Positions 18,158 through 26,864 of a DNA stretch of 32,047 nucleotides are shown one piece after another. The DNA comes from a virus. The notes under the pieces were generated by a model. The model made no database searches and had not been told where the DNA came from. It saw only the letters and a list, made by a program, of their open reading frames with translations. Each line of letters starts with the position of its first letter. The stretch's first letter is position 1. A program made the translations under genes and the position numbers. The stretch covers positions 1-32,047 of IMG/VR virus record IMGVR_UViG_3300046747_000514, one strand, 5' to 3'.

Positions 18158-18511
18158 GAGCTGTGCTCCTTGTTTGGACCTGTATTTGTCGCGGGCAGAA
18201 GAGCATATAGCATGAGCTTTGTCAACCGAATTATGCACGAAGTGCATAACTCCCCTTGTGGTTTCTCCGGAGCGACTCCCGGGAGGGGTGGCTCCCGCGC
18301 AGCGGGACCAGCCGGCTGGGGGGGAGCCGGGAGGCTGATGTCAAGTCAATTCTCCGCGAGGCTCATCAACTTATTGTGACCATCACGACTTCGTGATATC
18401 ACGATTAGTTGACTTGCGGGGAGGCGGGACCTGGTGTATATTTTTGAGGTCAGCGGGAATGCTGACCAGTGCAATACCTCACCCGCGCACACGCGCGAGA
18501 AGGGCATAGAT
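18158..18511. promoter_or_regulatory. Divergent control region between leftward and rightward gene blocks
   Basis: No convincing gene lies here. It separates the two transcription directions. It holds a perfect 19-base palindrome TTATGCACGAAGTGCATAA (18231-18249), a second one ATCACGACTTCGTGAT (18382-18397) followed by ATCACGAT, and a promoter candidate at 18414-18442. The palindromes have the size and symmetry of dimeric repressor or activator sites. A leftward promoter must lie here but I find no clean -35/-10 pair. Confidence 0.55.
18414..18442 (+). promoter_or_regulatory. Candidate sigma70-type promoter for the first rightward gene
   Basis: TTGCGG (18414-18419), a 17-base spacer and TATATT (18437-18442). 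The -10 box matches five of six consensus bases and the spacing is ideal; the -35 is weak. It lies about 70 bases before ATG 18512, just downstream of the 18382-18397 palindrome. Confidence 0.5.
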
Positions 18512-18721
18512 ATGATTAAGGTTAGTGTTGTGGCAACTGTGACGCTCGAACTCGAGGTCGACCTGGTCGACATCCAGGACGAGCTCGACGGGCCGCCTTC
18601 GGCGGCGGCTGTCAAGTCCTATCTCGAGGGCGAGACGCCAGAATTGCTTGACCAGTGGATGGCCGATGAAGGCTATGCAGTGGCCAAGGTCACGGTTAGT
18701 TTACCAGATGACTTTGAGTAA
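18512..18721 (+). CDS. Small acidic early protein of unknown function
   Basis: This 69-residue protein starts at ATG 18512 (AGAAGGG upstream). It opens with alternating hydrophobic residues (MIKVSVVATVTLELEVDLVD), a beta-strand pair, and continues with a helix (AAAVKSYLEGETPELLDQWM) and a final strand (AVAKVTVSLPDDFE). It is acidic. First gene in the rightward direction, it is probably expressed soon after infection and followed by a hairpin at 18729-18750. Small acidic first genes of phages often interfere with host proteins, but nothing in the sequence specifies a target. Confidence 0.7.
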   Translation: MIKVSVVATVTLELEVDLVDIQDELDGPPSAAAVKSYLEGETPELLDQWMADEGYAVAKVTVSLPDDFE

Positions 18722-18728
18722 GGTCAGG

Positions 18729-18750
18729 CGTGTGGCCGTAAGGCCACACG
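18729..18750 (+). terminator. Hairpin after the first rightward gene
   Basis: CGTGTGGCC, loop GTAA, GGCCACACG: a perfect 9-bp stem 8 bases after the stop at 18721. Only TT follows, not a T-run, so it may be a weak terminator or an RNA-stabilising hairpin. Confidence 0.5.
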
Positions 18751-18831
18751 TTGCCCCTCTACAACGTCAAGTCCAAATACGCAGGCTCACGAAAATGTGA
18801 AGAAAAAAACATCGATCAGAGCAGATAGGAC

Positions 18832-18859
18832 TTGCAAAATCTTCGCCTTGTGTTAGTAT
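18832..18859 (+). promoter_or_regulatory. Candidate promoter for the gene at 18933
   Basis: TTGCAA (18832-18837), a 16-base spacer, then TAGTAT (18854-18859), with TG at 18851-18852 giving an extended -10 (TGTTAGTAT). Predicted transcript start is near 18866, about 67 bases before ATG 18933, which excludes the longer TTG-start reading of that gene. Confidence 0.45.
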
Positions 18860-18932
18860 TCGCCTGTTGGAAGGAACCGGGCGATTGGCGCAAGGTTCAC
18901 AAGGGACCGCCTCACGGCAACGTGAGTCGGAT

Positions 18933-19589
18933 ATGACTATGGCAAGTGTAGACACGTCTGAACGGTTCAAGGTCAGCGATGGCGGTGAGTCCGGCCGTCC
19001 GGTGCGAGTCCGGAAGCTGTATATCACGGATGCCAACAAGACCGGGGACGTTAGGGCCAGCGCGGATGAGCCCATCCGCGTTGCGAGTCTCCTGTTTGTC
19101 GAGAACGGGACTCGGATCGACATTGATCTCGATCACATGGCAGACCAGTTTCCCAACTGGTTTCGGGCAGCTGCCGCGTTTGGGTGCCTTACGGCCGCAG
19201 CCAATGCCGCGACCTCCGCAAAAAAGGAGGACGGCACGCGTGGTGACCTGGACGACATGATCAATGCGGCGGAAGACCGCGTCGCGCAGTTTCTTGAGGG
19301 AGAATGGTCCGAAGGGGCCGCAGGACCTCGAGTCAGTGACTTTGTGACTGCATATGTCGAGAGCCGCAAGGTGAATGGCATTGTAGTCCCGGACGCGGCC
19401 ATCGCCGCGCTTCGCGAAAAGCTTTCGAGCAAGGCCCTTACTCCGAAGGCGTTGCTCGCGGACCTCACGGTCCGGCGGGAGTACCATGCGCTTAAGGAGC
19501 GCAGGGCCGCAGAGCGAGCAGCGAAGGCCGCTGAGGCAGCGCAGGGAGCCGGTATGTCCTCTGAGCTGGATGATTTGATCAACGCCTGA
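18933..19589 (+). CDS. Early phage protein of unknown function, Ala-rich C-terminal helix
   Basis: This 218-residue protein starts at ATG 18933 (a second ATG follows two codons later). The first part is beta-like (RPVRVRKLYITDAN, PIRVASLLFVENGTRIDIDL). Then comes a helical segment (QFPNWFRAAAAFGCLTAAA), a GDLDDMINAAEDRVAQFLEG stretch, PRVSDFVTAYVESRK, and a C-terminal helix very rich in Ala and charged residues (LKERRAAERAAKAAEAAQG) ending ELDDLINA. The DDMINA and DDLINA echoes are notable. I recognise this layout from early proteins of other phages, where function is unknown. It has its own promoter candidate and a strong terminator at 19617. Confidence 0.75.
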   Translation: MTMASVDTSERFKVSDGGESGRPVRVRKLYITDANKTGDVRASADEPIRVASLLFVENGTRIDIDLDHMADQFPNWFRAAAAFGCLTAAANAATSAKKEDGTRGDLDDMINAAEDRVAQFLEGEWSEGAAGPRVSDFVTAYVESRKVNGIVVPDAAIAALREKLSSKALTPKALLADLTVRREYHALKERRAAERAAKAAEAAQGAGMSSELDDLINA

Positions 19590-19616
19590 TGGGGCCTGGT
19601 CAACTGCAAGAGCCTA

Positions 19617-19641
19617 GAGGGCGCGAGAGCGCCCTCTTTTT
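19617..19641 (+). terminator. Intrinsic terminator after the 18933 gene
   Basis: GAGGGCGC, loop GAGA, GCGCCCTC, then TTTTT (19637-19641): a perfect 8-bp GC-rich stem with a T-run, 27 bases after the stop. A second small hairpin, GCGTCC-TTC-GGACGC, follows at 19642-19656. Confidence 0.85.
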
Positions 19642-19721
19642 GCGTCCTTCGGACGCAACCATAAGATAATAAGGTCATATGTTTCGCACATAGTCATCCT
19701 TCATATGTAGGGTCAAAAATA

Positions 19722-19750
19722 GGAACAGATCGGAACAGATCGGGAACAGA
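19722..19750 (+). repeat. 10-bp tandem repeat, 2.9 copies
   Basis: GGAACAGATC is repeated exactly twice (19722-19731, 19732-19741) and followed by a near copy GGGAACAGA (19742-19750). One copy per helical turn is the spacing used by iterons and cooperative operator sites. Confidence 0.8.
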
Positions 19751-19901
19751 ATAAGTTGATTTGAAGATTTATGAGTGTCTGAGTGGTACGAGGGGGCCAC
19801 ACACAGAGACCCCAGGGGCCACAAAGCAACGCGCTTTCCGCCCCCTGTGCTTCGCACACCATATGCTTCGCATATAGTCCCGCTCTTCTACTACCCTCTT
19901 G

Positions 19902-19922
19902 TTTTTTTTTTTTTTTTTTTTT
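19902..19922 (+). repeat. 21-base T homopolymer
   Basis: An unbroken run of 21 T followed by ATATTTTTATATAG. This would melt easily and bend DNA; it may also be of uncertain length because homopolymers are error-prone in sequencing. Confidence 0.8.
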
Positions 19923-20257
19923 ATATTTTTATATAGTAAGAGAAAGGAGAAAGTGTGTGGAAAAAACTAGTCTTTTCTCTGGGACCATATGGCTTCGCTA
20001 TAGTGTGCTTCGCACATAAGCTCAAGCTCTGAGCCGAAAGCTGTCTGCCCCGGCCGATGAGCTTATGGGTCGAGAGACCACGAACATTGCACGAGCAACG
20101 GCACTGCGACAGGGGCGAGGGCCTGTAGGGCCTGCCAGTCAGACAGTCATAAATCTTCAAATGAACACAATGTTGCCACAATTCGGCCACAAAGGCGTGC
20201 CACACTTCCCCCTGCGCCTGGACCACGAGTCCGAGCGCAGCACAGCGAGGTGACCAG

Positions 20258-20446
20258 ATGATTATCCAGCTCAACATAGACATCGCGCTCGTGAAAGCCA
20301 ACATCGAGAAGGAGCCCGCAGCGAAGTACGAATGGTGCGTGCAATATGATAGCAATTTTCTAGTCAAAGGCTACGCGCCAAATGTTCGAGTTGCGATTGA
20401 GAAGGTTCTAGCTGATCTCGATGGAATGGGAGTTCGAATTGACTAG
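20258..20446 (+). CDS. Small protein of unknown function
   Basis: This 62-residue protein starts at ATG 20258 with GAGGTG upstream. It begins with a strand-like MIIQLNIDIALVKANIEKEP, followed by KYEWCVQYDSNFLVKGYAPN and a helical end (VRVAIEKVLADLDGMGVRID). Size and plan resemble other small unknown proteins in this arm. First in a run of about eleven short genes. No motif recognised. Confidence 0.65.
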   Translation: MIIQLNIDIALVKANIEKEPAAKYEWCVQYDSNFLVKGYAPNVRVAIEKVLADLDGMGVRID

Positions 20447-25174: not shown

Positions 25175-26415
25175 TGGAACCTAGCCTTCCCCACTACGTA
25201 GATAGCTCGACGCTTTCAACGCTCCGAGCCTGCAAACGTAAGTTCTCCTGGAGCACCATCCATGCCCTCTACCCGACAGGAAAGTCCGTCCACCTCGTCG
25301 CCGGAGCCGCCTTTGCCGCTGGCCTCGAAGCCGCTAGGCTCCATGCTTTCCTCCCTGGTGTCGATTGCACACACCAAGATTTGCTTGAAGCTGCTCTACC
25401 TGCTTTCCTACGAGAATGGGGAGACTACGAGCCCCCCACCGGAAACGCCAAGTCCCTCGTGAATACCTTCAGTGCTCTGAATGATTACCTTGAGAACCAC
25501 CACCCTCTCAGTGACCTTGTCCAGCCTCACATCAAGGCTGACGGGACGCCCGCCGTTGAGTTCACCTTCAGCATCCCGCTCGACGGGCCGGACTATCCGC
25601 GCCATCCGGACGGGCAGCCGTTCATCTTCGTAGGTCGTTTCGACCTGCTCGGGTACTATGGAGCGGAGCGGCTCCCCGTAATCGTGGATGAGAAGACCAC
25701 AGGTGCCATTGGCTTTGCTTGGGAACACCAGTGGAGCCTCCGCGGCCAGTTCATCGGCTACGTGTGGGCAATGCAGCAGCTCGGCTTCGGCATTCGCCAT
25801 GTGCTCGTCCGTGGGATCGCGATCAACAAGACCCAATATAAAACCGCATCCGCTCTGCCAATGTACAGCGACCACCTTGTCTCTCGCTGGCACTCACAGC
25901 TCATCCGAGACCTCGTTGAACTCACGGAGACCTTCAAGGTCTGGGACTCTCGCCGGAAGGCCCGGGGTGATGATGCCCTGCTCGAAGGCTTCTGGGATAT
26001 GAACCTTGCGGACGCCTGTAGCTCCTACGGCGGCTGCGCCTTCACGACCCTCTGTGAGGCCAAAAACCCTCGCAACTTCTTCAACAATTACATACGCCAC
26101 CGCTGGGATCCGCTAGCTCGCAACCCAGTGATTGAACTGCATCCCGCGAGCAAACCAGAGGAGGAGCCTTTGGCTCCTCAAGACCCTATGGGGGACATCA
26201 AATGCGAACCTTGTTCATCGGAGTTGCCGTCGGAGCCCTCGTTCTCGCTGCCAGCTTCACTCCAGCCCATGCCCAGAGCGGCGCCCGCTGCTACCTTGAG
26301 GGAACTGTCTCCGCCGGAGCCAGCCTTCTCCCAGTCAGCGCCGGGCCTTCCACCATCGACCTCGGAGCCGAAGGCCTCGGAGTCAGTCCCGGCATCGGCT
26401 GCGACTACATCTTGA
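25174..26415 (+). CDS. Cas4/AddB-like PD-(D/E)XK nuclease with Fe-S cluster
   Basis: This 413-residue protein has a nuclease core: GRFDLLG (D157), PVIVDEKTTG (D172, E173, K174) and QWSLRGQFIGYVWAM (Q192), the pattern of the RecB/Cas4 family. C20 (LRACKRKFSW) and a C-terminal trio C282, C288, C294 (ACSSYGGCAFTTLCEAK) match the one-plus-three cysteines that hold a 4Fe-4S cluster in Cas4 and AddB. It likely degrades DNA ends to make single strands for the recombinase at 28343. The final ~70 residues are low complexity and are coded over the start of the OMP gene. Start overlaps the previous stop. Confidence 0.85.
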   Translation: MEPSLPHYVDSSTLSTLRACKRKFSWSTIHALYPTGKSVHLVAGAAFAAGLEAARLHAFLPGVDCTHQDLLEAALPAFLREWGDYEPPTGNAKSLVNTFSALNDYLENHHPLSDLVQPHIKADGTPAVEFTFSIPLDGPDYPRHPDGQPFIFVGRFDLLGYYGAERLPVIVDEKTTGAIGFAWEHQWSLRGQFIGYVWAMQQLGFGIRHVLVRGIAINKTQYKTASALPMYSDHLVSRWHSQLIRDLVELTETFKVWDSRRKARGDDALLEGFWDMNLADACSSYGGCAFTTLCEAKNPRNFFNNYIRHRWDPLARNPVIELHPASKPEEEPLAPQDPMGDIKCEPCSSELPSEPSFSLPASLQPMPRAAPAATLRELSPPEPAFSQSAPGLPPSTSEPKASESVPASAATTS

Positions 26416-26864
26416 ACCCTTTTTTCATCGGGGCGCTCTTCCGATACGACTTCACGCACTTCCAGGGGAACGTTGGACCGGGGACCTCCTTCGAGATCGA
26501 CCGGATAGCGACCCCGGCCATCCGTGCTGGCTTCAATGTGACGCCTTCTACTGGGATATATGGTCTTGCCGGCTACAGCTGGGCGCACGAGGCTGGCTCT
26601 GGTGCAATCTCTTCCGCGAACTTCCAAGGCCCCGTCTTTGGAACGGGGATCGAGCACCAGTTCACGAAGTACCTGAGCCTGAAGTTGGAGTACAACTTTG
26701 AGCACTTCAACCACGCAGCTATCGGTCCGGTCCTCGCCAGCGATGGGCCGGACACGCACGTCGTCCGCCTCGGGCTCAGCTTCAACTTCGGCGGCGTGAA
26801 CTATCCGGAGCCTTCTATCCAGGGACAGAGCCGTTACACCCCTCTGAAGAGACAACATTATTAG
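26202..26864 (+). CDS. Outer-membrane beta-barrel protein
   Basis: This 220-residue protein starts at ATG 26202 (GGGGAC upstream), inside the C-terminal coding of the nuclease gene. Residues 1-24 are a typical Sec signal (MRTLFIGVAVGALVLAASFT) with cleavage expected after PAHA. Then come alternating-residue strands: CYLEGTVSAGASLLP, FFIGALFRYDFTHFQG, AGFNVTPSTGIYGLAGYSW, YLSLKLEYNFEHFNH and VVRLGLSFNFGGVNY, fitting an eight-strand OmpA/Omp25-type barrel. This type is common in alphaproteobacteria. In a phage it may change receptor use or exclude other phages. The chain extends past the usual final Phe by ~25 residues. Confidence 0.8.
   Translation: MRTLFIGVAVGALVLAASFTPAHAQSGARCYLEGTVSAGASLLPVSAGPSTIDLGAEGLGVSPGIGCDYILNPFFIGALFRYDFTHFQGNVGPGTSFEIDRIATPAIRAGFNVTPSTGIYGLAGYSWAHEAGSGAISSANFQGPVFGTGIEHQFTKYLSLKLEYNFEHFNHAAIGPVLASDGPDTHVVRLGLSFNFGGVNYPEPSIQGQSRYTPLKRQHY

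Follow-up and report, generated by a model that had tools for sequence, protein, structure and literature searches.

The window analysed here is an IMG/VR virus record (IMGVR_UViG_3300046747_000514), taken over its whole length of 32,047 bases, in which tailed-phage structural genes lie on the - strand and early genes on the + strand. Searches of the window by DNA similarity against named phages, by tRNA scan and against Rfam at gathering thresholds returned no match. Our subject is the 668-base gap at 19590-20257, which follows an early gene of the P0001 family (18933..19589, + strand) and contains a large imperfect palindrome, or dyad element, enclosing a run of 21 T residues. Short inverted repeats with TTC loops form part of its arms, and the element is a candidate replication origin. 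It comprises the following features:

19755..20166, no strand assigned: whole dyad element, a 412-base imperfect palindrome and candidate replication origin
19755..19786, + strand: outer left arm, 91% complementary to 20135-20166 over 32 nt
19846..19858, + strand: TGTGCTTCGCACA palindrome, left arm unit; perfect, TTC loop
19861..19875, + strand: ATATGCTTCGCATAT palindrome, left arm unit; perfect, TTC loop
19902..19936, + strand: AT-rich core, T21 followed by ATATTTTTATATAG; proposed unwinding element or T-loop
19986..20003, + strand: imperfect CATATGGCTTCGCTATAG palindrome, right arm counterpart of 19861-19875 by arm alignment; loop not inverted
20004..20016, + strand: TGTGCTTCGCACA palindrome, right arm counterpart of 19846-19858; perfect, TTC loop
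20135..20166, - strand: outer right arm, partner of 19755-19786

The original prediction described a family of palindromes with TTC (or, on the other strand, GAA) loops, and every one that it listed was found, with coordinates either exact or at most 2 bases off. Five are perfect: 18231-18249 (TTATGCAC-GAA-GTGCATAA), 19640-19658 (TTGCGTCC-TTC-GGACGCAA, with an 8-bp stem, slightly longer than first given), 19846-19858 and 20004-20016 (both TGTGC-TTC-GCACA), and 19861-19875 (ATATGC-TTC-GCATAT). Imperfect copies lie near 19678 and 19988. When perfect palindromes with a TTC or GAA loop and a stem of at least 5 were counted, the gap held four where 0.02 were expected, a number reached in none of 2000 dinucleotide shuffles, and all perfect 3-base-loop palindromes in the gap have the TTC loop. 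Over the whole window there are nine TTC/GAA-loop palindromes (1.2 expected), and GCTTCGC occurs four times within 160 bases (19849, 19865, 19992 and 20007), with eight more copies, both strands counted, in the other ∼32 kb. The copies are not the one uniform family originally proposed: those at 19846, 19861, ∼19987 and 20004 make up a set placed symmetrically about the T-tract.

The order of the units is mirrored around the core, with TGTGCTTCGCACA, ATATGCTTCGCATAT and GTCCC on the left and GGGAC, CATATGGCTTCGCTATAG and TGTGCTTCGCACA on the right; in addition, 19871-19881 pairs with 19981-19991 at 10 of 11 positions. The loops are not inverted across the core, so that each unit keeps its own orientation while the arms still match their counterparts. 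Among the long inverted repeats of the window, the outer 32-nt repeat, which brackets the T21/AT core, ranks first (score 23), while the core holds the most AT-rich 25-mer and is the only tract in the window with at least 19 of 20 A+T. A DNA fold of 19600-20260 scored z -6.4 against shuffles, and alignment of the two halves of the element to each other gave z 3.1 against shuffles.

Relatives were collected as dereplicated TerL homologues (31–71% identity), together with Mel-JY34 and MW202489 from a phage collection. The pattern was first seen in the window and in loci L003 and L006, and 15 other dereplicated TerL loci were then tested. In 14 of these 15 (0.11 expected, P ∼ 1e-30) the most AT-rich 25-mer lies between the arms of the top long inverted repeat, and the same holds for 11 of 26 loci of an independent set picked by neighbouring gene family (0.71 expected), both expectations being approximate as the tract was treated as a random point in the locus. 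The single exception among the TerL loci is L051, in which a higher score goes to a short-spaced repeat located elsewhere. Microcystis phage Mel-JY34 has the element, as does the complete, circular genome MW202489, and the L042 contig (G008, read as L061) has the same layout at 796-1070. Its usual place is 2.4–4.4 kb 5' of TerL. Arms aligned to each other beat shuffles in every locus (z 3.1 to 15), and folds in three diverged phages gave z values of -6.4, -7.0 and -4.3. Nearly all elements carry the T-run on the early strand, the exceptions being L015 and L006 (which has A6T8), and this usual polarity suggests initiation with a preferred strand.

The arms of several relatives consist of short-motif arrays, arranged as mirror images on the two sides of the core and spaced at close to one helical turn: GCAAT in L036, CCCTA in L015, GCCTA in L047, TCCCC in L052 and, read by eye, GTCTA/GTCTG in L104. 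The L036 arrays contain GCAAT eight and seven times, with spacings of 11,10,10,10,9,9,8 and 11,10,10,9,9,8, and pooled spacings of the leading 5-mers peak at 8–11 bp. The palindrome sequences of the window were not found in the close relatives L003-L006, nor were the exact palindrome patterns found in 2.9 million viral contigs. Among these diverse phages the architecture is kept and the sequence is not. The expectation that a genuine family would exceed chance and persist in relatives was borne out for the counts, which are far above chance, and for the enclosing element, but not for the palindromes as sequences. The four copies in the element, of which three are perfect and one is imperfect, represent this phage's form of a larger, conserved dyad/T-tract element. 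The original prediction had overlooked its conserved part, which comprises the T21/AT core, the mirror order and the outer inverted repeat of 32 bases. No description of such an element was found in the open-access literature. Two separate observations were made in these loci. A strong short-spaced palindromic and tandem repeat at 20612-20712 of L051 is unrelated to the T-tract element, and in L057 (Vibrio phage VS-ABTNL-3) an inverted repeat at 40665-40790, recognised by eye, surrounds TATATATTTTTTTTATAGATA beside P0001-like genes; its layout is similar, but here the TerL strand carries the T-run, and the flagged AT-richest tracts sit in the arms.

In most relatives the dyad element has a P0001-family gene as its neighbour, and this gene is often present more than once. 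In many loci ∼180–340 bases separate the near end of the gene from the tract, while in others the distance is greater; two copies occur in some phages, and the gene points either way relative to the element: in L015, L020, L040 and L051 the nearest member reads away from it, while the window gene reads toward it. Close protein searches with P0001 recovered no relatives; a profile search did, with homologues in L003, L006, L007, L026, L036, L040, L047, L056 and others, and these make up a diverse early-gene family. Most members have HGLSQKxGD and GxW motifs, and several have a DD-rich or acidic C-terminal end. The window protein has no match in Pfam or among PDB sequences, and its predicted structure is a fair model (predicted local distance difference test, pLDDT, 83.5; predicted template modelling score, pTM, 0.57).

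We consider, with moderate confidence, that the palindromes at 19846-20016 are repeated arm units of a dyad element that is most likely the replication origin of the phage. Its layout, with initiator-type repeats surrounding a region rich in A+T, is that of an origin. T21 with ATATTTTTATATA provides the A+T-rich region of a dyad or iteron origin as a putative unwinding element, and candidate initiator sites are repeated beside it, as palindromes in the window and as mirrored, phased motifs in relatives. An initiator would bind the mirrored units, or the units would fold into hairpins; in the window these would be small palindromes exposing d(GCGAAGC)-type hairpins on the - strand. Binding would distort the DNA and open the T-tract, which may then let the phage replisome (DNA polymerase, helicase and the DUF3987 protein) load or prime. 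By annotation, complete relatives encode a DNA polymerase and a helicase, and Mel-JY34 also a DUF3987 protein. Each core palindromic unit of the window carries GCGAAGC on the - strand, a sequence that forms an unusually stable DNA mini-hairpin; the energy model assigns equal energy to both strands and does not credit this special stability.

Several known origins offer comparisons. The initiator sites of the lambda origin are inverted repeats next to a 40-bp A+T-rich region (PMC5043065). Like ori-lambda with its O-protein iterons, the phage element has inverted-repeat sites beside an A+T-rich stretch, but lambda has its iterons on one side of that region, whereas the phage element has a homopolymer tract flanked left and right by mirrored arms; the analysis identified no homologue of the O protein. 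The iterons of plasmids are helically phased and accompany an A+T-rich region (PMC5043065). The origins of P1, RK2 and F thus share short helically phased motifs and an A+T-rich region with the phage element, whose arrays differ in being mirrored around a core, and no Rep initiator gene was found here. In the mitochondrial OriL, a hairpin presents a stretch of T where synthesis of the primer begins on the single strand (PMC4256270). The human OriL stem-loop, with its T-stretch in the loop, resembles the T-loop proposed for the phage, where exposure of the tract as a single strand and its use for priming are hypothetical. Mitochondrial OriL is far smaller than the phage element. Inverted initiator sites also flank an A+T-rich centre in herpesvirus OriS/OriL and in the SV40 origin; with these the phage element shares an analogy of layout only, as the viruses and initiators are unrelated. 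The element could represent a new kind of double-stranded DNA phage origin, in which the T-tract loop of a large cruciform or hairpin would serve as the direct primer start, as in mitochondrial OriL, the P0001-family protein would be a new class of initiator and the arms would carry exceptionally stable d(GCGAAGC) mini-hairpins; we regard this fuller version as rather unlikely.

A number of results weigh against an origin. The inverted-repeat centre of the window, taken with 150-nt halves, was no better than random places (z 0.2), and the alignment around its T-tract was equalled at random places of the same genome in 261 of 1875 cases. This lack of significant half-to-half symmetry is probably due to arms of unequal length; since the comparison is weak, the dyad in the window is supported instead by its outer 32-nt repeat, by the z-score of the fold and by the relatives. 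Motif arrays, tested singly, were significant against shuffles in only some loci, and more than half of the P0001-family loci lack such an element within 4 kb. The predicted P0001 fold has no match in PDB or BFVD, and the family, as initiator candidate, has no recognisable fold or domain. Finally, GC skew in Mel-JY34 has a maximum rather than a minimum near the element, the circular genome L058 has neither extreme near it, and a Vibrio phage has a minimum near a similar element that tracks gene orientation. As an independent locator of origins, GC skew was set aside, its results being conflicting and confounded by gene orientation.

Other functions were weighed. The element could be a transcription-control region, with the palindromes as operators for the early operon from ∼20258 or for the upstream gene. 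On one side it has the terminator of the upstream gene and on the other the next early genes, operators typically take the form of short palindromes, and a weak promoter-like match at 19851-19878 overlaps two of the palindromes here; but that match is at chance level (one found, 0.5 expected), and repressors would leave unexplained both why diverse phages have a T/AT core in the middle of a large dyad and why neighbouring genes may point either way. We judge operators to be unlikely. The original suggestion of regulator binding sites in control regions nevertheless stands in part, as the palindromes are early intergenic control elements and binding sites come near the preferred reading, in which they are candidate origin sites. 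Promoters for an N4-type virion RNA polymerase, which are hairpins with C-GNA-G loops, were a further reading; the window, whose largest listed open reading frame has 664 aa, yielded no very large polymerase gene.

It is similarly improbable that the element is a packaging site (pac), at which the dyad would bind the small terminase and the T-tract would ease the first cut. Its usual position within 2.4–4.4 kb of TerL fits this idea, as does the fact that contigs of several relatives end in the tract. In L047, though, the element is 8.3 kb from TerL, and the window has one other gene, as well as a divergent promoter region, separating the element from the terminase genes. The contig ends at the tract look, moreover, like assembly breaks with ambiguity of poly-A length: the ends of G004 (L020 and L059) overlap by ∼130 bases and differ by one A in the poly-A (A20 versus A19), which makes this a circular or permuted genome whose contig was broken at the homopolymer. 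The contig ends of G008 and G005 overlap elsewhere than at the tract, and the maps of MW202489 (deposited as circular) and G008 close into circles.

For a large structured non-coding RNA or 3' untranslated region, RNA folds of 19600-20260 gave z -6.5 and -7.2 on the two strands, and the upstream gene of the window reads toward the element. Yet the direction of transcription is not fixed, given the family genes that read away in the four loci named above; arm mismatches comprise 161 G-T (137 expected) and 226 A-C (210 expected), with no clear strand bias and no strand-specific G-U bias; and Rfam gave no match at gathering thresholds. Such an RNA is very unlikely, and the earlier idea of hairpins affecting transcript stability gains little from the varying direction of neighbouring genes and the unbiased mismatches. 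A fixed physical end at the element, whether cos or hairpin telomere, is ruled out by the contig-end overlaps and by a circular genome that contains the element at an internal position. An origin fits better than do physical termini, a fixed mRNA tail or ordinary terminators.

Outside the dyad element, the following features were recorded:

18231..18249, - strand: TTC/GAA-loop palindrome in the divergent late/early region; stem differs from the other copies
19616..19637, + strand: intrinsic terminator of the upstream gene
19640..19658, + strand: TTC-loop palindrome immediately following the terminator; its RNA would form a C(UUCG)G-loop hairpin
19678..19690, + strand: degenerate copy TATGTTTCGCACA, 85% identical to TGTGCTTCGCACA
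19722..19750, + strand: three tandem direct repeats, GGAACAGATC / GGAACAGATC / GGGAACAGA, read from the sequence

The palindrome at 19640-19658 is probably separate from the dyad, and for this hairpin beside the terminator, and nowhere else, an RNA role is plausible. That at 18231-18249 is probably a separate candidate regulatory site; a sigma-70 promoter scan of its region gave no match. The tandem repeats at 19722-19750 adjoin the left arm of the dyad on its outer side and may possibly be a second iteron array. Elsewhere in the window, an open reading frame at 26202-26864, amid the phage early region, matches the outer-membrane beta-barrel families OMP_b-brl and OmpA_membrane.

Most phages known only from metagenomes have no mapped replication origin. 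If the element is indeed an origin, a T-tract within the strongest long inverted repeat of a locus, beside a P0001 gene, would be a simple origin signature for many uncultured phages. Microcystis phage Mel-JY34 would then be a named relative for testing, and the element would point to a candidate for a new initiator family.
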